Of a stretch of DNA of 29,339 nucleotides, positions 1 through 29,251 are shown piece after piece. The first letter of the stretch is position 1. Each line of letters begins with the position of its first letter. The stretch comes from a virus. The notes under the pieces are model-generated. The model was not told the DNA's origin and ran no database searches. It saw only the letters and a program-made list of their open reading frames with translations. The position numbers were made by a program, and so were the translations under genes. The stretch covers positions 1 through 29,339 of the IMG/VR virus record IMGVR_UViG_3300042882_000202. One strand, 5' to 3'.

Positions 1-302
1 ATTGCAACTTTAATAATAGAAATGGTGATTATATGAAAAATATAATAATTAAACCCGTTAATAGTGGTAAAGAAAATGCAGGTCATTCTTTTGCTTTTGG
101 TGATTGGTTACCTAATTTTTTTATTAATAATTTTTCAAAAGAAAATGATTTAATATATGATCCATTTATGGGAACAGGAACAACTGCAAAATCAGCACAT
201 ATATATAAAAGAAATTGGATAGGTAGTGAAATATCAAAAGAATATGTTAATATTGCAAACAAAAGATTAAAACCTTATTTAGACCAACAAACACTTTTTT
301 AA
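1..302 (+). CDS. DNA methyltransferase, C-terminal part (gene cut by window edge)
   Basis: This is the 3' portion of a DNA amino-methyltransferase that transfers a methyl group from S-adenosylmethionine to adenine N6 or cytosine N4. The frame is open from base 3 with no stop before 302, so the first in-frame ATG at 33 is probably internal. The visible motif is DPFMGTGTT (bases 162-188), the FxGxG-type SAM-binding motif I, preceded by a target-recognition-like stretch and followed by an acidic motif II region (IGSEISKEY). Motif I lies in the C-terminal half, as in beta-class enzymes, so the catalytic S/DPPY should be upstream. It is missing here but begins in the fragment at the right edge (29244-29339). 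The protein ends in QQTLF, which resembles a sliding-clamp-binding pentapeptide. It is followed after 2 bases by the next gene. The family call is firm; the base specificity is not. Confidence 0.85.
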   Translation, partial: CNFNNRNGDYMKNIIIKPVNSGKENAGHSFAFGDWLPNFFINNFSKENDLIYDPFMGTGTTAKSAHIYKRNWIGSEISKEYVNIANKRLKPYLDQQTLF

Positions 303-3892: not shown

Positions 3893-4106
3893 AGAAAACG
3901 TAATAATTAACCAAGACGGATCAGTTAATCAAACACGATTCACCATTGACGGAATGGATCTTGAAATTGTAGGAACATCATTTGGCGATTCTTACAAAGC
4001 AATGGACGCACACGACACAATTCGAAATCATACAACCGGACGCGAAACAATTTGGAATCGAAGAAAATTAAAAGAATTAACCGATAAATTATGCTCGAAA
4101 AATTAG
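3885..4106 (+). CDS. Hypothetical protein, 73 residues
   Basis: The start chosen is ATG at 3885, which overlaps the nuclease stop in an ATGAATAA arrangement; an upstream TTG in the same frame is not needed. The protein begins with polar beta-like segments (ENVIINQDGSVNQTRFTIDGMDLEIVG) and ends with a basic helix (RRKLKELTDKLCSKN) that overlaps the first 16 bases of the sigma-like gene. I recognise no family. The position between nuclease and sigma factor and the tight coupling suggest a small accessory protein of the early operon. Confidence 0.65.
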   Translation: MNKENVIINQDGSVNQTRFTIDGMDLEIVGTSFGDSYKAMDAHDTIRNHTTGRETIWNRRKLKELTDKLCSKN

Positions 4107-4579
4107 CACAACGGCACAACGAATGGTTGAAATTAGCATTCAATATTTGTAGAAATAAAGAATATTCAAAAGATTTAGTTCAAGATATGTATATAAAAAT
4201 TCATAACTCGGGCAAAGAATTTGACGAAATAAACGAATGCTATATTTATTTCATTATGCGAAATCAATTTCTAAATGAAATAAAAGAAGACAAAAAATTC
4301 ATTGACGTTGACGTTAATATTTTGAACGAAATTGACGAAGAATACAATATTATAAACGATATTAAAGAAGAAGTGACAATTGAAACACTGCAAAAAGAAT
4401 ATGAAAAACTAACTTGGTACGAAAAACAAATAATTGATTTGACTTCCGAATATGGACAAAGAGGATTGTCACGTCAAACCGGAATCCATATACAAACCAT
4501 TCACAACACAACAAAAAAAATAAAATTAAAATTATGGCAAAACGTGCAAAAAAAGTTGAAGGAACTCAACCTTCCGTAA
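4091..4579 (+). CDS. Sigma-70-like factor / helix-turn-helix protein
   Basis: This 162-residue protein has the layout of a small sigma-70 family factor. An N-terminal region 2-like helical domain (residues about 10-65, with AFNICRNKEYSKDLVQDMY) resembles the core-binding helices, where KDLVQDxxIK is typical. A linker of about 40 acidic residues follows. A C-terminal region 4-like helix-turn-helix (about 105-150, LTWYEKQIIDL then GLSRQTGIHIQTIHNTTKKI) could bind DNA. Bacteroidota phages often carry such a protein just upstream of the terminase. It may direct host RNA polymerase to late phage promoters, or be a DNA-binding factor derived from sigma. Its 3' end overlaps the next gene by 46 bases. 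Confidence 0.75.
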   Translation: MLEKLAQRHNEWLKLAFNICRNKEYSKDLVQDMYIKIHNSGKEFDEINECYIYFIMRNQFLNEIKEDKKFIDVDVNILNEIDEEYNIINDIKEEVTIETLQKEYEKLTWYEKQIIDLTSEYGQRGLSRQTGIHIQTIHNTTKKIKLKLWQNVQKKLKELNLP

Positions 4580-4982: not shown

Positions 4983-5294
4983 ATGGTACGTGACGAAAAG
5001 GGGCATTTTTTAAAAGGACATAAAGGATTGAAGCCGAAAGGTGTCACACACGCACTCACAATTGAAGCGCGTGAATTGTTTATTATGACACTTGAAGCGC
5101 AAGTTCCAAACGTTCACCAAGCATTCGCAGACGTCTTGGAAAAAGACCCGGCAAAGTATTTGGATTTGTTTGCGAAATACGCGCAATATTTCATTCCGAA
5201 AAAGATTGAATCCGACGTGAACTTTAATATTGAAAAACCAATCTTTAAACAATTAGATTTAAATGTCATTTCAGAAAACGACGGCACAAAGTAA
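4983..5294 (+). CDS. Putative terminase small subunit
   Basis: This is a 103-residue protein directly upstream of terL and overlapping it by 32 bases. It starts with a Gly/Lys-rich arm (DEKGHFLKGHKGLKPKG) like the 'GRPKGSKN' arms of small DNA-packaging proteins, then a helical region (ALTIEARELFIMTLEAQVPNVHQAFADVLEKDPAKYLDLFAKY) that could form the oligomer core. The C-terminal tail (IEKPIFKQLDL) could contact the large subunit. Small terminases bind the packaging site and feed DNA to the motor. The assignment rests on position, size and general character rather than on a decisive motif. Confidence 0.6.
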   Translation: MVRDEKGHFLKGHKGLKPKGVTHALTIEARELFIMTLEAQVPNVHQAFADVLEKDPAKYLDLFAKYAQYFIPKKIESDVNFNIEKPIFKQLDLNVISENDGTK

Positions 5295-6426
5295 AATCGC
5301 AAGGTTACGAAAGCGAATTCGAATCGTGCAAGGCGGAACGTCAAGTTCGAAAACATTTTCAATTGTTCCTTTGTTGATTTCGTATGCGATTGAAAATCCA
5401 ATGTCAGAAATTTCGATTGTGTCGGAATCAATACCGCATTTGAAACGGGGTGCGATTAAAGACTTCCAAAAGATAATGATTCTTTGCGATTTGTACCGCG
5501 ACGAACAATTCAACAAATCCGATTTAAAGTATAGATTCAAGAACGGAAGTTTTATTGAATTCTTTTCAGTGGATCAACCGGACAAATTGCGAGGCGCTCG
5601 ACGTGACATTCTATTTGTAAACGAATGTAACAACATCGACTTTGAATCTTATCAACAATTGGCAGTTCGTACAAAGAAGTTTATTTATTTAGACTACAAC
5701 CCAACAAGCGAATTTTGGGTGCATAGCGAACTAATGAAGGACATCGATTCCGACTTTGTTATTTTGACGTACAAAGATAATGAAGCGTTGGACCCGGCAA
5801 TCGTTCGAGAAATTGAAAAGGCGAAAGCAAAAGCAAAGACGTCGTCTTATTGGGCGAACTGGTGGCAAGTTTACGGACTTGGTCAAATTGGATCGCTTGA
5901 AGGTGTGGTGTTTTCAAATTGGAAAATCATTGACACAATTCCAAGTGAGGCAAACTTTATTGGGTGTGGTCTTGACTTTGGTTTCACAAACGATCCGACG
6001 GCACTTGTTGCAGTGTTCGAATACAACAACCAAATAATTGTTGACGAACGAATTTACACAACCGGACTTTTAAACTCGGACATCATTCGCAAAATGGAAC
6101 AAGACAAACGATTTCCAATTTATGCCGATTCAGCCGAGCCGAAATCAATTGAAGAAATACGACGTGCGGGATTCAATATCAAACCCGTTGTCAAGGGCAA
6201 AGATTCAATTTCGTTTGGGATTGCGATACTTCAAGAAAAGGAAATCCTTGTAACAAAGTCAAGCACCAATTTAATAAAAGAATTCCGCGCTTATTCCTGG
6301 GACACTGACAAAACGGGAAAACGATTGAACAAACCAATTGACGAAATGAATCACGCAATTGACGCATTGCGATATTTTGCAATGTCGCATTTCAAAATAA
6401 TTAATAAAAAATTTCGCGTTACATAA
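5263..6426 (+). CDS. terL: Terminase large subunit
   Basis: This is the packaging motor ATPase and nuclease, 387 residues. Walker A is GGTSSSKT (residues 24-31) and Walker B with the catalytic glutamate is DILFVNEC (115-122, Glu121). The C-terminal RNase H-like nuclease shows GLDFG (Asp238), YADSAEP (Asp289) and NHAIDALRYF (Asp367), the three acidic metal ligands. All key residues are present and the length is usual for the Terminase_3/6C-type families. It docks on the portal and translocates and cuts concatemeric DNA. The portal gene is not next door but about 11 kb downstream (17200), which is unusual. A terminator (6497-6527) follows, so terL is probably the last gene of its transcription unit. 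Confidence 0.97.
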   Translation: MSFQKTTAQSKIARLRKRIRIVQGGTSSSKTFSIVPLLISYAIENPMSEISIVSESIPHLKRGAIKDFQKIMILCDLYRDEQFNKSDLKYRFKNGSFIEFFSVDQPDKLRGARRDILFVNECNNIDFESYQQLAVRTKKFIYLDYNPTSEFWVHSELMKDIDSDFVILTYKDNEALDPAIVREIEKAKAKAKTSSYWANWWQVYGLGQIGSLEGVVFSNWKIIDTIPSEANFIGCGLDFGFTNDPTALVAVFEYNNQIIVDERIYTTGLLNSDIIRKMEQDKRFPIYADSAEPKSIEEIRRAGFNIKPVVKGKDSISFGIAILQEKEILVTKSSTNLIKEFRAYSWDTDKTGKRLNKPIDEMNHAIDALRYFAMSHFKIINKKFRVT

Positions 6427-6496: not shown

Positions 6497-6527
6497 CACT
6501 CACTTTTTAAGTGGGTGTTTTTTTTTT
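6497..6527 (+). terminator. Rho-independent terminator after terL
   Basis: CACTCACTT (6497-6505) pairs with AAGTGGGTG (6509-6517), giving a 9-bp stem with one G-U wobble and a TTT loop, followed by a run of ten T (6518-6527). This is a classic intrinsic terminator. It lies 70 bases after the terL stop and probably closes the replication/packaging transcription unit. Confidence 0.88.
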
Positions 6528-6545
6528 GCGTGACGTTGGGACGAT

Positions 6546-6557
6546 GACACAAAGACG
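6546..6557 (-). repeat. CGTCTTTGTGTC box, inverted copy
   Basis: GACACAAAGACG here is the exact reverse complement of CGTCTTTGTGTC at 26596-26607, just upstream of the primase-helicase gene 20 kb away. It faces the related forward box at 6620-6639. Its place in the same cluster as the TTTGCGTC repeats suggests a shared binding protein. Confidence 0.55.
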
Positions 6558-6619
6558 GAATCCTATATGTGCGGTCTAGTATTAAAATAAAAACACACTC
6601 CCCTCAAAAAAGTGAAACT

Positions 6620-6639
6620 TTTGCGTCTTTCCGTCTAAT
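6620..6639 (+). repeat. 20-base box shared with the primase-helicase leader
   Basis: TTTGCGTCTTTCCGTCTAAT matches TTTGCGTCTTTGTGTCTAAT at 26592-26611 in 18 of 20 positions. The shared core is TTTGCGTCTTT, two variable bases, GTCTAAT. A short hairpin (6608-6622, AAAAGT and ACTTTT arms) overlaps its left end. It could be an operator or a replication-protein site. Confidence 0.65.
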
Positions 6640-6658
6640 TAGAATTTTATTAATTTTG
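6628..6658 (+). promoter_or_regulatory. Possible promoter overlapping the shared 20-base box
   Basis: TAATTTTG (6651-6658) matches the Bacteroidota -7 element TAnnTTTG, with TTTC (6628-6631) 19 bases upstream in place of TTTG at -33. The -33-like part lies inside the CGTCTTTCCGTC box, so a protein bound to the box would cover the promoter. It would read towards the virion operon at 6931. Confidence 0.35.
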
Positions 6659-6702
6659 TAAGTTATTAAAATCCAACACATTAACTTTGAAAAAGTAATC
6701 AA

Positions 6703-6791
6703 AAAAGCGTGACGCAAATTTTTTAAAATAATTATTTGCGTCTGTTATTAACAATTTGCGTCTTTTATTAACACATTTGCGTCACGCTTTT
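6703..6791. repeat. 17-bp inverted repeat enclosing TTTGCGTC direct repeats (candidate iterons)
   Basis: AAAAGCGTGACGCAAAT (6703-6719) and ATTTGCGTCACGCTTTT (6775-6791) are perfect inverted copies. Between them lie two tandem 20-base repeats differing at one base, ATTTGCGTCTGTTATTAACA (6734-6753) and ATTTGCGTCTTTTATTAACA (6754-6773). The right arm supplies a third TTTGCGTC at 6776, so the three forward copies are spaced 20 and 21 bases apart, about two helical turns, on the same face of the DNA. This regular phasing is typical of iterons or operator arrays. The arms could also extrude as a cruciform. Confidence 0.75.
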
Positions 6792-6845
6792 ATATTAATT
6801 TTCTAACGTGGGAAAAAAAATAATAAAGAATAATATAAATAAATG

Positions 6846-6870
6846 CTTATTTAGAATGATTCTAAATAAG
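6846..6870. promoter_or_regulatory. 25-bp perfect palindrome, operator-like (copy 1)
   Basis: The left arm CTTATTTAGAAT (6846-6857) and right arm ATTCTAAATAAG (6859-6870) are perfect complements around a single central G. It lies 60 bases before the first virion gene. A related copy occurs at 24164-24188, before the replication operon. The inner 7-1-7 part (TTAGAAT, n, ATTCTAA) resembles binding sites of Fur/PerR-type regulators, which may be coincidence. I see no matching regulator in the window, so a host protein or an unseen phage protein would have to bind it. Confidence 0.65.
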
Positions 6871-6930
6871 GAATGAAAAATAAGTTTAAACAAAACGTAT
6901 TTTTGTTGTTATATTATAAATGGTATATTT

Positions 6931-7623
6931 ATGAAGATTACAATTCCAAGTGATTTGTCTGAAATTAAGTTGTCGCAATACTTACGTTATTCAAAAGTGT
7001 TACAAGACAACCAAGAAGACGAAACGTTTATTGCAATTCAAATGGTTTCAATTTTCTGCAAATTAAAAATCGAAGACGTTATGAAAATACCGGCTTATGA
7101 TTTTGCGGAAATTGTGCAACACTTGTCGGAAGTATTAAAACAAAAACCGGCACTTGTTCGAACGTTCAAATTAAATGGTGTGAATTATGGATTTGTTCCG
7201 AACTTTGACGAAGAATCAATCGGGACATTTGCTTTTATCGATTCGCATTTAGGTAGTGAGGAAAATTGGTCAAAATTAGTTTCGGCAATGTATCGACCAA
7301 TCACAAAACGATTTGGTCAATTCTATGACATTGGCGAATTCGAGGGCGACAAATACGCCGAAGAATTTTTCGACATTCGAATGGACTGCGTAGTTGGTGC
7401 GGTGCTTTTTTTTTGGACTTTAAAAATCGAATTATTGAACAATATTCTAGCTTATTCGGAACAAGTCTTGACAACGGAAATGAATTCGGAAGCGGTGGAA
7501 GTTTTTTCGAACGTTGGAATTGGTATCACTCAATTGTCAAAATTGCGCGAGGAAATTATTTTGACATCGAACGAGTTGAAACTACAAACTTACATTTTGC
7601 GCTTACCTTCCTTTCTTATTTAA
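6931..7623 (+). CDS. Tail assembly chaperone, zero-frame product (gpG-like)
   Basis: This is a 230-residue protein that opens the virion operon. Its first 160 residues (ITIPSDLSEIKLSQYLRYSKV, then VLKQKPALVRTF, NGVNYGFVPNFDEESIGTF) have the look of the tail-assembly-chaperone-like proteins of Bacteroidota phages. At codons for LFFW there is a run of nine T (7406-7414), and a -1 slip there enters the open frame ending at 7682. In lambda-type tails the short and long chaperones made this way guide tape measure protein and tube assembly. The zero-frame tail after the run (about 70 residues, IELLNNILAYSEQ onward) may be a real product or a readthrough tail. The leader is AT-rich with no Shine-Dalgarno site, as elsewhere here. 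Confidence 0.8.
   Translation: MKITIPSDLSEIKLSQYLRYSKVLQDNQEDETFIAIQMVSIFCKLKIEDVMKIPAYDFAEIVQHLSEVLKQKPALVRTFKLNGVNYGFVPNFDEESIGTFAFIDSHLGSEENWSKLVSAMYRPITKRFGQFYDIGEFEGDKYAEEFFDIRMDCVVGAVLFFWTLKIELLNNILAYSEQVLTTEMNSEAVEVFSNVGIGITQLSKLREEIILTSNELKLQTYILRLPSFLI
7405..7414 (+). promoter_or_regulatory. Putative -1 ribosomal frameshift site (CTTTTTTTTT)
   Basis: The zero frame reads GTG CTT TTT TTT TGG. Slipping back one base on the T run re-pairs TTT with TTT perfectly and continues TTG GAC TTT AAA in the frame that stays open to 7682. The position, in a chaperone-like gene upstream of the tail and tape measure genes, is where many tailed phages use programmed frameshifting. A run of nine T is also a place where sequencing or assembly may miscount. 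Confidence 0.65.
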
Positions 7624-23035: not shown

Positions 23036-24157
23036 ATGGATTCAAAACTTTACTTCGACGACATTGATTTTTCAAAAAATCACCTTGAAAACTTTCAAAA
23101 CATCGTAAAAAAACACAACTTAAATTTATCTAATATTGAAAAGGACACTTTAAGACGTGCTTTAAAAAGAAAAATCGATTCAAGCGGTATTGTTGACGCG
23201 TGTCAAAACTTAAATATTGACGACAAAAACGTCAAACATTTATGGCTTAAAGACAAAAATTCGTCGTTATTCGTAAAGAATCCAAACTATATTGAGGCGG
23301 AAATACAAGAATTTGAATTGTTGTCGAGCGCATTAATTGAAGACATCAAACAATTTGCACCGGTTTTCCCTAAAATAGAACGCCAATACACAAATGAAGG
23401 TCATTGCTTGGTATTGTCACCGGCTGACATTCACGTTGGTAAATTATGCAACGAATGGGAAACGGGCGAAAAATACAATTCAAGCATTGCAATTCAACGA
23501 ACTTTGGAAGGAGTGCGCGGAATCCTGGACAAGTCGTCCGGATTTAATATTGATAAAATTGTTTTCATTGGCGGAAATGATATTTTGCATATTGACAACC
23601 CAAAAAGAACAACAACAAGCGGAACGCCCCAAGACACGGACGGAATGTGGTATGAAAACTTTATGTTGGCAAAGCAATTATATGTTGACGTATTGCAAAC
23701 GTTGGTTTCTATTGCCGACGTTCACTTTGTTTTCAATCCTTCAAACCACGATTACACAAACGGATTTTTTTTGGCGCAAGTGATTGAATCATATTTCAAA
23801 GACTGCGAAAATATTACATTCGACATTTCGATTTCACATCGTAAATACTTCAAATACTACAACAACTTAATTGGATCAACACACGGCGACGGCGCAAAAC
23901 TTGAAAATCTTCCTTTGCTTATGGCTTCGGAATCGTCGCAATGGTCAAACGTGAAACATAGATATATATACACGCACCACGTTCACCATAAAATTGCAAA
24001 AGATTTTATCGGTTGCACAATTGAAAGTTTACGTTCACCAAGCGGAACGGATTCTTGGCACCATAGAAATGGTTATCAACACGCACCAAAGGCGATTGAA
24101 GGTTTTATTCACCACAAAGAATTCGGACAAATCGCACGATTAACACATATTTTTTAA
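23036..24157 (+). CDS. Calcineurin-like metallophosphoesterase
   Basis: This 373-residue protein has all the metal-binding motifs of the calcineurin-like superfamily: DIHVG (Asp131, His133), GGND (Asn181, Asp182), NPSNHD (Asn237, His238), THGDG (His283) and THHVHH (His314 to His318). An N-terminal domain of about 110 residues (LRRALKRKIDSSGIVDAC, helical) precedes the catalytic one and may bind DNA. Phages of Bacteroidota often carry this protein; it may act as a phosphodiesterase or a DNA nuclease of the SbcD type. A TATATTTA at 23010-23017 resembles a weak -7 element, so it may have its own promoter. It is the last gene before the regulatory gap at 24158. Confidence 0.88.
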   Translation: MDSKLYFDDIDFSKNHLENFQNIVKKHNLNLSNIEKDTLRRALKRKIDSSGIVDACQNLNIDDKNVKHLWLKDKNSSLFVKNPNYIEAEIQEFELLSSALIEDIKQFAPVFPKIERQYTNEGHCLVLSPADIHVGKLCNEWETGEKYNSSIAIQRTLEGVRGILDKSSGFNIDKIVFIGGNDILHIDNPKRTTTSGTPQDTDGMWYENFMLAKQLYVDVLQTLVSIADVHFVFNPSNHDYTNGFFLAQVIESYFKDCENITFDISISHRKYFKYYNNLIGSTHGDGAKLENLPLLMASESSQWSNVKHRYIYTHHVHHKIAKDFIGCTIESLRSPSGTDSWHHRNGYQHAPKAIEGFIHHKEFGQIARLTHIF

Positions 24158-24163
24158 ACGTTG

Positions 24164-24188
24164 CTTATTTAGAATCGTTATAAATTAG
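24164..24188. promoter_or_regulatory. Palindromic operator-like element (copy 2)
   Basis: The left arm CTTATTTAGAAT (24164-24175) is identical over 12 bases to the left arm of the perfect palindrome at 6846-6857, and the preceding G is shared too. The right arm GTTATAAATTAG (24177-24188) matches the ideal right arm in 9 of 12 positions around a single central C. It lies 30 bases upstream of a promoter-like site and 91 bases before the first gene of the replication operon. The pairing with copy 1 suggests one regulator for both transcription units. Confidence 0.6.
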
Positions 24189-25764: not shown

Positions 25765-26232
25765 ATGATACAAAATGAAGTAATTAAACACATTTACGAC
25801 TTAACCGGAATAAATATCAATACCAAGTCAAGAAAGCGTGAAATCGTTGAAATGAAAGCCGTTTATTCGACTATTTTAAGAAACAAAAAAGTTTTGACGC
25901 TTCGTGAAATTGGCGAATCAATTGGACTTGGTCATTGTTCTATAATACATTTATGCAAAATTTATCCAATTATAAAAAATCAATATTTAATTGACATTCA
26001 AGAAAAGGTTTTAATGTTATTAAATGGAATGTCAATTGATTTAATACTTTTACAAGAAGAAAAAAAGAAAATTGAAGAAGAAAAATCAAAAATTGAAATT
26101 GAAAAACAATCAAATTTTGATCCATTTTTCGAAAATTTGATTAAACTTGCAAATGAAAACCCGGACGTTATGTTTAAACTTGAAACTTTTTACAAAATTA
26201 ATAATCAAATCTACAACAAAAATGAATCCTAA
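25765..26232 (+). CDS. DnaA domain IV-like DNA-binding protein
   Basis: This 155-residue protein has an N-terminal domain like the DNA-binding domain IV of DnaA. TKSRKREIVEMKAVYSTILR (residues 20-39) matches the 'SRKRxIVxAR' helix, TLREIGESIG (45-54) matches the 'eIG' helix, and GLGHCSIIHLCK (54-65) stands in the place of the DnaA signature 'GRDHSTVxHA', which reads the DnaA box. The AAA+ ATPase of DnaA is missing. The C-terminal half has a charged coiled coil (EEKKKIEEEKSKIEIEKQ) that may allow dimers. It is an attractive candidate to bind the TTTGCGTC repeats and start or regulate phage replication. A 56-base gap with weak inverted repeats precedes it. Confidence 0.75.
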   Translation: MIQNEVIKHIYDLTGININTKSRKREIVEMKAVYSTILRNKKVLTLREIGESIGLGHCSIIHLCKIYPIIKNQYLIDIQEKVLMLLNGMSIDLILLQEEKKKIEEEKSKIEIEKQSNFDPFFENLIKLANENPDVMFKLETFYKINNQIYNKNES

Positions 26233-26419: not shown

Positions 26420-26570
26420 AATTGAGCAAATGCAAAGATTTTATAATTGGTTGACAAAAATTCAATCAGTTCACTTAAACGATAACAATTCAATTATGAA
26501 TGCCTGTGAACGCGTGACGCAAAGTCAAAGTTTCTTTATGTGCGTTTCAAAAAGAACAAAGTTTTTGTAA
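26379..26570 (+). CDS. Hypothetical protein, 63 residues
   Basis: The start taken is ATG 26379 in a long overlap with the preceding gene; ATG 26430 (MQRFYNWLTKIQSVHLND) is an alternative that avoids the overlap and may be the true one. The peptide has a helical centre and polar rest. The 3' end holds GCGTGACGCAAA (26512-26523), identical to a piece of the inverted repeat at 6707-6718, so the coding sequence may also be a regulatory or replication site. I know no function. Confidence 0.5.
   Translation: MKSTTSTQSNQKSKIEQMQRFYNWLTKIQSVHLNDNNSIMNACERVTQSQSFFMCVSKRTKFL
26512..26523 (-). repeat. GCGTGACGCAAA element, second locus
   Basis: GCGTGACGCAAA is identical to 6707-6718 and is the reverse complement of TTTGCGTCACGC at 6776-6787. 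It lies at the 3' end of the 63-residue gene, 80 bases before the forward box at 26592. The two face each other, as the copies at 6711 and 6735 do. Confidence 0.6.
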
Positions 26571-26591
26571 GTGGTTGAAAATTTCAAAAAA

Positions 26592-26611
26592 TTTGCGTCT
26601 TTGTGTCTAAT
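26592..26611 (+). repeat. 20-base box shared with the 6.6-kb region
   Basis: TTTGCGTCTTTGTGTCTAAT matches 6620-6639 in 18 of 20 bases, and its CGTCTTTGTGTC part is an exact inverted copy of 6546-6557. It lies in the 58-base leader of the primase-helicase gene, so it could be an operator for that gene or a second replication-protein site. Confidence 0.65.
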
Positions 26612-26628: not shown

Positions 26629-28983
26629 ATGAATATTTCAGTTTTCAAATCACTTTATAAAAGTGACGACGTACCTTTTGAGGTTGACGTGTTGAAAGTT
26701 TTAGCACGAATCAAAAATGGAACGTCAAAAGATAAAATTATTAAAATTCGCAAAATGAATGATTGCGAAGAAAAAAAGAACTTGAAAAATTCTTTGCTTT
26801 CAATTCTATTCAATGGAACTTTTTCAGCACGAAACGACAATTCATTGATTGAGCATTCCGGACTTTGTATTTTAGATTTTGACAAATACGAATCCATAGA
26901 AAAACAAAACGAAGAACGTCAAAAACTTATGAATTGCGAATTCGTGTTTTCGGTTTTTGAATCACCAAGCGGAAACGGATTGAAAGCATTGATTCGAATT
27001 CCAAAATGTGACAAAGAAACTCACAAACGTTATTTCAAATCATTTGGCGAATATTTTGAAAGCGATTATTTCGATTTCAAGAATTCAAATTTAAGTCGTG
27101 TTTGTTTTGAAAGTTATGATCCGGACTTGTATATAAATGAAGAAGCAAAAGTTTGGGAAAAATTAACCGAAGAAGAAGGACATTCAGTTTTTGAACGAAA
27201 TCCAATTTTGCCGTTGACGGACGAAGACGAAATCATTCGTCGTTTGTTGAAATGGTGGGATAGCAAATTCGGTTTCAAATCAGGTGAACGAAACAACAAC
27301 CTTTTCATTTTAGCGAACGCGCTTTGTGAATATGGAATAAACCAAGACTATGCGTTCAATTATGTTAATGCAAACGTTGTGTTTGGTGATTTTTCAGAAA
27401 ACGAATTGTTGACGCTTTTCAAATCGGCTTATAAACGTGCAACGTTCAATTCAAAGTATTTTGAAGACATTAACAAAATAGAACGAATCAAATCGAATTT
27501 GTCAAAAGGAATCCCAAAAAAAGACATAGCAAATTTGCTGAAAATCGACGAAACAATTATTGACGAAGTAAAAGAAATAAACGACGACGACGACTTTTGG
27601 AACAAATTCGAAGATAAAAAAGGAAATGTGACAATAAAAATTGATTCACTAAAATACAAATACTGGCTTGAACGAAAAGGATTTAAGAAATATTATCCGG
27701 AATCGGCAACAAATCCGACGTTTGTTCATATAAAATCAAACAAGGTGACACAATCGAGCGTTGATATTATCAAAGACGTTGTGTTGAAGTTTCTTTTAGA
27801 ACGCAACGAAATTGAAGTTTTCAATTTTTGTTCAAAGTCGGCGCAATTATTTAGTGACTATTATTTAACAATGCTTGAATCAATTGACTTGAAAATGATA
27901 AAAGATTCAAGAAATGAAGCATTCATTCCGTTTCAAAATGGTATTGTAAAAATCACAAAAAACAAAGTTGAATTGATTGACTTTATAGACGTTGACGGCT
28001 ACATTTGGGAAAACCAAATAATCAATCGCGATTTTGTGGAATCAAAAGACATTGAAAATGATTTCAAAAATATGGTTGCAAAGGTTTCAGCGGACGACCA
28101 AAAGCGAATCAATGCGTTGGAACATACACTTGGATATTTGATTCACTCGTTTAAAGATAAAACCGACCAAAAAGCAATCATAATAAATGACCAAGAAATT
28201 GACGACAATCCAAACGGCGGATCTGGCAAATCATTAATGATTTCAGCATTGTCAAATTTTAAAAAGGTTGTAAAGATTGACGGCAAGTCGTTCGATTCTA
28301 AAAAAGGCGATTTCGTTTATCAACGTGTCACGTTGGACACTCAAATTTTAGCATTCGACGACGTGAAAAAGAACTTTGATTTTGAACAATTGTTTTCAAT
28401 TATTACGGAAGGAATCGCAATCAATAGAAAAAACAAAGACGAAATATTTATTCCGTTTGAACGTTCACCGAAAATCATAATTACGACAAATTATGTCATC
28501 AATGGAAGTGGAACATCACACGACCGAAGAAGACACGAAATTGAGTTCTTCCAATACTTCAACGGCAAACGAAATCCATTGACCGAATACGGACGTTTAT
28601 TGTTTGATTCCTGGGAAACGGAAGATTGGATAAAATTTGACAATTATATGATTTCAAACTTGAAAAAGTTTTTAAAGAATGGTCTTGTTGAATCGGTTTC
28701 AATCAATGCAGACATCAAACGATTAATTCAGTCAACCAATAAAGATTTTTACGACTGGGTAATTGACGGAAATCTTCCGGAAAACGTTCGCGTTTATAAT
28801 ACGGAAATAATGGCTAAATTTACAAATGAATACAAATCATTCGGACTTATGAATTCAAAAACATTCTTGAAATGGATTCACGAATATTGTAAATTTAACG
28901 ATTACGAAATTGACAAAGACAAAGATCACGTCGGACGATTTTTTATAATTAAAACAAACAAAATTGAAGACGTTCCATTTTAA
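26629..28983 (+). CDS. Primase-helicase (VirE-N/BT4734-like plus SF3 helicase)
   Basis: This is a 784-residue replication protein. The N-terminal part (GLCILDFDKYESIEKQ, residues about 78-93, and FVFSVFESPSGNGLKALIRI, 105-124) has the look of the VirE N-terminal/BT4734-like domain found with primases in Bacteroidota mobile elements. The C-terminal half is a superfamily 3/D5-like helicase: Walker A NPNGGSGKS (527-535), Walker B ILAFDD (573-578), sensor IITTN (617-621) and an arginine-finger region HDRRRHEIEF (631-640). Such proteins open DNA and may make primers at the origin. The C-terminal tip reads EDVPF, like the acidic SSB tail. It is preceded by the shared box at 26592 and is the largest early gene. 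Confidence 0.88.
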   Translation: MNISVFKSLYKSDDVPFEVDVLKVLARIKNGTSKDKIIKIRKMNDCEEKKNLKNSLLSILFNGTFSARNDNSLIEHSGLCILDFDKYESIEKQNEERQKLMNCEFVFSVFESPSGNGLKALIRIPKCDKETHKRYFKSFGEYFESDYFDFKNSNLSRVCFESYDPDLYINEEAKVWEKLTEEEGHSVFERNPILPLTDEDEIIRRLLKWWDSKFGFKSGERNNNLFILANALCEYGINQDYAFNYVNANVVFGDFSENELLTLFKSAYKRATFNSKYFEDINKIERIKSNLSKGIPKKDIANLLKIDETIIDEVKEINDDDDFWNKFEDKKGNVTIKIDSLKYKYWLERKGFKKYYPESATNPTFVHIKSNKVTQSSVDIIKDVVLKFLLERNEIEVFNFCSKSAQLFSDYYLTMLESIDLKMIKDSRNEAFIPFQNGIVKITKNKVELIDFIDVDGYIWENQIINRDFVESKDIENDFKNMVAKVSADDQKRINALEHTLGYLIHSFKDKTDQKAIIINDQEIDDNPNGGSGKSLMISALSNFKKVVKIDGKSFDSKKGDFVYQRVTLDTQILAFDDVKKNFDFEQLFSIITEGIAINRKNKDEIFIPFERSPKIIITTNYVINGSGTSHDRRRHEIEFFQYFNGKRNPLTEYGRLLFDSWETEDWIKFDNYMISNLKKFLKNGLVESVSINADIKRLIQSTNKDFYDWVIDGNLPENVRVYNTEIMAKFTNEYKSFGLMNSKTFLKWIHEYCKFNDYEIDKDKDHVGRFFIIKTNKIEDVPF

Positions 28984-28993
28984 AAATAAATAT

Positions 28994-29251
28994 ATGATTG
29001 AAGAAAAAAAAGAAATAATTTATTGCAATTTAACTTTAAAAAAAGGAAAAGAAATAATTGAATTGAAAAATGTTGTTTATAAATACAATGACGGATTTTT
29101 TAAAAATTCAAGATTAGGAATAAAAGATCCTTTACAAGTTTTAAAAGTTGAAAAAATTGTTAGTTTAGGATTTGAAAACAAATTAAAATCTTATACCGAA
29201 GTAAAAAAATCAAATGAAAAACGTAATAAAATAACCGGAGTATATGAATAA
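28994..29251 (+). CDS. Hypothetical protein, 85 residues
   Basis: The start is ATG 28994, 10 bases after the primase-helicase stop; the frame also runs upstream into that gene. The protein is lysine-rich with beta-like strands (EKKEIIYCNLTLKKGKEIIE, then LKNVVYKYNDGFFKNS) and a basic end (KKSNEKRNKITGVYE). I recognise no family. Its stop overlaps the methyltransferase start (ATGAATAA at 29244), so the two are co-translated. Confidence 0.65.
   Translation: MIEEKKEIIYCNLTLKKGKEIIELKNVVYKYNDGFFKNSRLGIKDPLQVLKVEKIVSLGFENKLKSYTEVKKSNEKRNKITGVYE

Follow-up and report, generated by a model that had tools for sequence, protein, structure and literature searches.

A conserved two-unit box array as a candidate replication origin in phages encoding a DnaA-like protein and a primase with SF3-type helicase motifs

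The alpha protein of P4 binds the repeats of its origin through a winged helix and then unwinds and primes the DNA, and ORF904 of pRN1 is likewise a primase/SF3/winged-helix protein, the origin of which still functioned when moved elsewhere on the plasmid (PMC4234260). Little has been described of replication origins in Bacteroidota phages, and in the open-access literature, most subscription-journal papers lying outside this coverage, we found no account of an element such as the one reported here, which is located in the virus contig IMGVR_UViG_3300042882_000202 (29,339 bp, analysed over its whole length and hereafter called the window). As in the P4 replicon, where short repeats form the origin, a primase and an SF3 helicase are joined in one protein with a winged helix, predicted in our case, and short repeats make up the candidate origin (PMC4234260). 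The phage locus differs from P4 in having a BT4734-like primase rather than one of the Toprim type, a different box sequence that turns over between lineages, divergent box pairs together with a direct array, and a DnaA-like gene in the cassette. With pRN1 it shares an archaeo-eukaryotic-type primase, an SF3 helicase, a C-terminal winged helix (again predicted here) and a candidate origin that can move, whereas pRN1 uses a long stem-loop without iterons (PMC4234260) and here the direct boxes are conserved and the hairpin is not. Iteron plasmid origins have repeats of 20–22 bp, comparable to the spacing of 20–21 bp in the phage array, and AT-rich flanks and DnaA-box-like sites are common to both; in the phage, however, these sites, TTWTNAACA, depart from the canonical sequence and are contained in the repeat unit, and no RepA-type initiator was found among the phage proteins scanned. 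The same motif differs from the TTWTNCACA of bacterial oriC (TTATNCACA) at one fixed position (6, A), position 5 being free in both, and the phage, too, encodes a protein resembling DnaA domain IV, but an AAA+ DnaA was not identified. A canonical DnaA-box origin was rejected because the box TTWTNCACA is absent from the window.

The genome map is circular and the window represents approximately the whole genome, since the contigs of its close relatives G003 and G009 (29,809 and 29,979 bp, with terminal repeats of 58 and 121, respectively) open at different genes. Nearly all genes of the window are carried on the + strand, and among named phages its terminase is best matched, at 54% identity, by Flavobacterium phages. 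The first gene of the window (33–302) matches the C-terminal part of a DNA methylase, the other part of which may sit in the last open frames (28964–29251), a split that is expected if the circle was opened inside the methylase gene. A sigma-70 region 2 gene (4091–4579; Pfam E 3.1e-7) is found just 5′ of the terminase. The end of the terminase large subunit (TerL) gene at 6426 and the start of the next gene at 6931 are separated by 504 bp, the longest non-coding stretch of the window, and it is here, as a first-pass annotation made from the letters alone had stated, that the array is found.

The complete element in this gap, site A, comprises two units (Table 1). The TTTGCGTC copies listed for it by the first-pass annotation, forward at 6620, 6735, 6755 and 6776 and inverted at 6711–6718, are all correct, as is the inverted box at 6546, where GACACAAAGACG is an inverted CGTCTTTGTGTC; the five TTTGCGTC copies fall within 164 bp. 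Unit I is built of divergent box pairs (<< N70 >>), with an 8-bp step in complete pairs and about 70 bp between the arms, whilst unit II, 60–80 bp beyond it, consists of one inverted box and three direct boxes. The spacings of 20 and 21 bp that had been given for the forward copies are those between the direct boxes of unit II, which alternate with the DnaA-box-like TTWTNAACA, and the true repeat unit of the array is thus 20–21 bp long, TTTGCGTC-TK-TTWTNAACA. Clustering lies far above chance: none of 500 dinucleotide shuffles reached five copies in 200 bp (shuffle maximum, three), no other 8-mer of the window is as clustered as TTTGCGTC, and the window as a whole holds eight copies against 2.1 expected, a number reached in 0 of 100 shuffles. 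Three further copies are located at 26516, 26592 and 12297, the last of which lies inside a coding gene and looks like a chance copy. The AT-rich flank noted earlier is also present at 6790–6940; only one other 150-bp stretch of the window is less stable, a weak pointer given that several other places are similar.

Table 1. Coordinates of the box elements and associated genes in the window.
Feature	Position	Strand	Conservation or basis
Site A, complete box element (unit I + unit II), candidate replication origin	6525..6791	+	Same layout in 28 relatives; upstream of primase in many cousins
Unit I left arm, inverted boxes (TTTGTGTC at 6546-6553 on - strand; degenerate GTC repeats)	6532..6560	-	
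CCTATATGTGCGG block	6562..6577	+	Position equivalent to TCTCTTATTA / TTCTTTATATGCG in site B and cousins; sequence comparison
Unit I right arm, two head-to-tail boxes 8 bp apart, TTTGCGTC-TTTCCGTC	6620..6635	+	97% conserved in 28 relatives
Perfect 17-bp inverted repeat, left arm	6703..6719	+	Not conserved in second clade
Unit II inverted box, TTTGCGTC	6711..6718	-	
Unit II direct box 1, TTTGCGTC	6735..6742	+	98% conserved
DnaA-box-like TTATTAACA (TTWTNAACA)	6745..6753	+	~91% conserved
Unit II direct box 2, TTTGCGTC	6755..6762	+	100% conserved
DnaA-box-like TTATTAACA, second copy	6765..6773	+	
Unit II direct box 3, TTTGCGTC	6776..6783	+	94% conserved
Perfect 17-bp inverted repeat, right arm	6775..6791	-	
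AT-rich flank, candidate unwinding region	6790..6940	.	Stability scan
TerL gene	5263-6426		PHROG terminase families
DnaA-domain-IV-like protein, 155 aa, candidate initiator partner	25765..26232	+	Pfam Bac_DnaA_C
Site B, partial copy (unit I only), directly upstream of primase start	26516..26607	+	Boxes 26516 (-), 26592 (+), 26600 (+, TTTGTGTC)
Primase with SF3-type helicase motifs, predicted C-terminal winged helix	26629..28983	+	Pfam BT4734-like_N, PriCT_1

In 28 of 28 close relatives the array likewise follows the terminase gene at an unchanged position, these relatives being the phages from a terminase search with readable DNA downstream of the terminase. Across these 28 distinct sequences identity to the window was 94–100% in the boxes and 97% in the right arm of unit I but 63–71% in the spacers, and the TTATTAA stretch between the boxes was 91–97% identical. 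The direct boxes follow each other at intervals of 20 and then 20–21 bp, the last interval measuring 31 bp in four relatives. A second clade has GACGCAAAGACGATGACGCAA in place of the left-arm box of unit I, no exact copy of the inverted box of unit II, and TTTGCGTCTTTGCGTC in place of the right arm of unit I, a replacement also seen at site B of most relatives. Among viral contigs, the 19-bp unit occurs in tandem in this phage group only. The TTTGCGTC boxes constitute a genuine and strongly conserved DNA element. The 17-bp inverted repeat previously described around the boxes is indeed perfect in the window, where longer imperfect arms extend around it, but does not hold as a conserved feature, as the second clade does not share it whilst the boxes are kept there. 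These arms fold strongly (6700–6795, -28 kcal/mol), and we take them to resemble bacterial genome repeat families, so that a structured RNA transcript and a mobile REP/MITE-type palindromic repeat (GACGCAAAG...CTTTGCGTC) had to be weighed. We regard either as highly improbable: no fitting Rfam family was found, all matches being weak and sub-threshold, in the genomes of 84,980 bacterial and archaeal species no single stretch carries the array unit more than once, and the second clade retains the direct boxes and not the strong hairpin. A conserved RNA structure or hairpin was rejected because the arms are not kept in that clade.

A perfect 25-bp palindrome, CTTATTTAGAATGATTCTAAATAAG, lies at 6846–6870, 60 bp ahead of the 6931 gene, and is 99% conserved in the 28 relatives. 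It includes the flavobacterial Fur box ATTTAGAATNATTCTAAAT, which has been reported for Riemerella (PMC5609570). The same 25-mer precedes putative phage structural genes by about 40–60 bp in other viral contigs, and late genes may for this reason be under host iron control; in five bacterial genomes it had no match with up to one mismatch allowed. Also ahead of the 6931 gene, and common to the relatives, is TTGTTATATTA, which might be the late promoter of this gene.

More distant phages, termed cousins here, were collected by a primase search (about 70 loci at 53–57% identity), with more added by an alignment search. In most of them the two-unit layout is found immediately 5′ of the primase gene. 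The box sequence differs by lineage and is largely uniform within each genome (TTTGCGTCAT, CTTGTCAT, ATCGTCAC, ATCGTCAT, TTTTGTCGCG, TGTGGAAT and others), and box positions remain near-constant whilst the motif changes: relative to the primase, ATCGTCA boxes start near -204 (<), -196 (<), -128 (>), -120 (>), -73 (<) and -55 (>), and TGTGGAAT boxes at -203 (<), -196 (<), -117 (>), -109 (>), -65 (<), -44 (>) and -34 (>). At least four copies of one 7-mer occurred within 450 bp upstream of the primase in 69% of 100 distinct loci, against 5.6% for random places in the same loci, and at least five copies in 53% of the 100 distinct loci, against 0.07% for random places. Two further lineages have TTWTNAACA immediately after a unit II box; this arrangement accounted for 19 matches in 15 loci (four of which belong to the phage group of the window), compared with one match for the reversed motif and none on the other strand.

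A gene for a DnaA-domain-IV-like protein was present near the primase in 107 of 112 loci, and upstream of it in all except the MW202828 locus. TerL and portal proteins of the cousins are mostly 20–35% identical or were not detected, which indicates that the DnaA-like gene, the element and the primase act as one cassette. A gene of the HNH/homing-endonuclease type lies directly 5′ of the primase in eight loci (L351, L355, L357, L368, L380, L382, L388 and L391), and in the four that were read further up (L357, L380, L382 and L388) the element keeps its form behind the DnaA-like gene, with the HNH-type gene between element and primase; in L386 a different gene separates the two. The layout of MW202828, the primase of which is 42% identical, is similar, with ATCGACATA boxes about 11 kb from the primase and a few boxes near it. 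No box cluster was found in Muminvirus phages (tooticki), in which a DnaA-like protein is present. In L224, L289 and L281, a Bacteroidota-type promoter-like sequence is followed, about 20–120 bp upstream of the primase, by a leader that has paired segments and a T-run and looks like an attenuator; no Rfam family matched it at threshold.

Site B of the window reads GACGCAAAG ... 68 bp ... TTTGCGTCTTTGTGTC, its right part being mostly TTTGCGTCTTTGCGTC in relatives, and is the counterpart of the left half, unit I, of the main element; that it matches this half alone shows the main element to have two units. As a second repeat cluster away from the main element it recalls crr of P4, a phage with iterons in both ori and crr. 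In one relative (L088, contig G007) a pentapeptide-repeat-like gene with ANLxSADLxSA repeats lies between site B and the primase, at ~23,500–24,180 of the contig. Site B ends about 20 bp ahead of the primase start (26629), and this brings in the main rival explanation, a multi-box operator without origin function, at which the DnaA-like protein or the primase would bind the boxes and control the primase operon (site B and cousins) as well as the late operon from 6931 (site A). Consistent with such a role, the element of most cousins adjoins a promoter-like sequence of the primase operon, TTG-N19-21-TAnnTTTG following the last box, and site A too precedes an operon. An element that is solely an operator should, however, stay at the primase promoter, whereas in the phage group of the window some 9.4 kb of the circle separate the full element from the primase gene, and the promoter keeps unit I only. 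The full internal layout is also retained elsewhere, behind TerL, upstream of an HNH-type gene and 11 kb from the primase (MW202828), at site A the next gene is some 150 bp away and the boxes themselves have no conserved promoter match immediately beside them, and the DnaA-box-like repeats between the boxes suit an origin better. We therefore consider the operator explanation unlikely. In the origin reading, the unit I copy at the primase promoter probably serves for autoregulation or as a second origin-like site.

Two further explanations concern the position of the array and its resemblance to plasmid iterons. Site A lies directly behind the TerL gene of a circularly mapped genome, as would a packaging site of the pac/cos type in which the boxes serve as small-terminase binding sites. 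We judge this very unlikely, as the element of the cousins lies by the primase, about 7–9 kb from TerL, and contigs with terminal repeats start at differing genes (a helicase gene in G003, g25040 in G009 and inside TerL in G032), so that no fixed end is seen near the array; a packaging site was rejected as the main reading because in the cousins the element follows the primase and not the terminase. On plasmids, iteron-like arrays also act in partition and copy-number control, and the element might accordingly be a parS-like iteron site or an incompatibility element of a phage with a plasmid-like stage. The chance of this appears very slight, since the element follows the primase and the DnaA-like gene, and family scans, which covered part of the ORFs, gave no ParA/ParB or TubR-type gene.

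The DnaA-like protein of the window matched Bac_DnaA_C with an E value of 5.9e-6 and 26.7 bits against a cut-off of 31.5, which the proteins of four cousins pass. Primase and, as read from its motifs, SF3 helicase are combined in a single protein, in which NGGSGKS, LAFDD and TTN are invariant or nearly so in 50 sequences and a BT4734-like N-terminal domain takes the place of a Toprim-type primase domain. The C-terminal domain, about residues 685–784, is predicted to adopt an H-H-E-H-H-E-E fold (mean pLDDT 76), and its fold matches were mostly winged-helix proteins, albeit generic and weak with all E values above 0.1; the model of the full-length protein was poor (pTM 0.31). Among solved structures this domain had no relevant sequence match, one such search hitting an unrelated PPR protein.

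It is doubtful that the DnaA-like protein reads TTTGCGTC. This protein is 99% identical in G029 and G023 despite their TTTGCGTCAT and CTTGTCAT boxes, which differ in the 5′ half, and a role as the specific box reader is not supported. L338 has boxes and no DnaA-like gene found within 9 kb, one case that favours the primase in this role. Residue 420 of the primase is the site that covaries best between the TTTGCGTCAT and CTTGTCAT box classes, since 16 of the 18 cousins with TTTGCGTCAT boxes have G there and 10 of the 11 with CTTGTCAT boxes have E, but the D or E found in the window group with TTTGCGTC breaks the rule and the independent events are few, so that a specificity switch at this residue was discarded. 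Neither the DnaA-like protein nor the primase sequence tracks the 5′ half of the box. The likeness of the boxes themselves to DnaA boxes (TTATCGTCA, TGTGGAAT) was set aside, the matches being oppositely oriented in different lineages.

Taken from sequence comparison, the element is probably an iteron-type origin of a replicon based on a DnaA-like protein and a primase/SF3 helicase in a family of Bacteroidota phages. An origin is favoured over an isolated operator because the box layout recurs with the replication genes of many cousins. The first-pass annotation had called the array an iteron origin or multi-site operator, and clustering, conservation and recurrence with replication genes agree with this; GC skew, which it had put forward as a check, does not mark the origin. 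Skew at four-fold sites is high after the array and low before it; the shift, however, lies near TerL in the window group and in many cousins, including those with the element elsewhere, and follows gene modules. Since it sits there regardless of the position of the element, it lends the origin no support and was rejected as evidence.

If the element is an origin, the winged helix of the helicase, possibly together with the DnaA-like protein, would bind the 8-bp boxes, several protomers being positioned along the DNA by the divergent pairs in unit I together with the direct boxes in unit II. The intervening TTWTNAACA sites could then be taken by the DnaA-like protein or by host DnaA, whereupon an SF3 ring would assemble and melt the AT-rich flank, and the primase would lay the first primers, allowing replication forks to start. 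Every one of these binding, melting and initiation steps is what we infer from an element that is itself observed, with its conservation, its layout, the turnover of its boxes between lineages and its co-occurrence with both genes.

It is conceivable, and we offer this more tentatively on the basis of sequence, that the phages represent an undescribed family of origins, in which a DnaA domain IV detached from its AAA+ motor and a primase/SF3 helicase would operate on a box array of fixed geometry, the boxes of each genome turning over together and the array moving as a unit. If true, these phages would offer a natural series in which the co-evolution of an initiator with its origin could be followed. 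The retention of the layout over many distinct loci, with a box sequence that has wholly changed, predicts the replication start in many uncultured phages, and the element makes it possible to test how specificity shifts jointly in an initiator and in its multi-copy sites. In one phage group the whole element has been relocated, a transplantation experiment performed by nature that helps to separate origin from operator.
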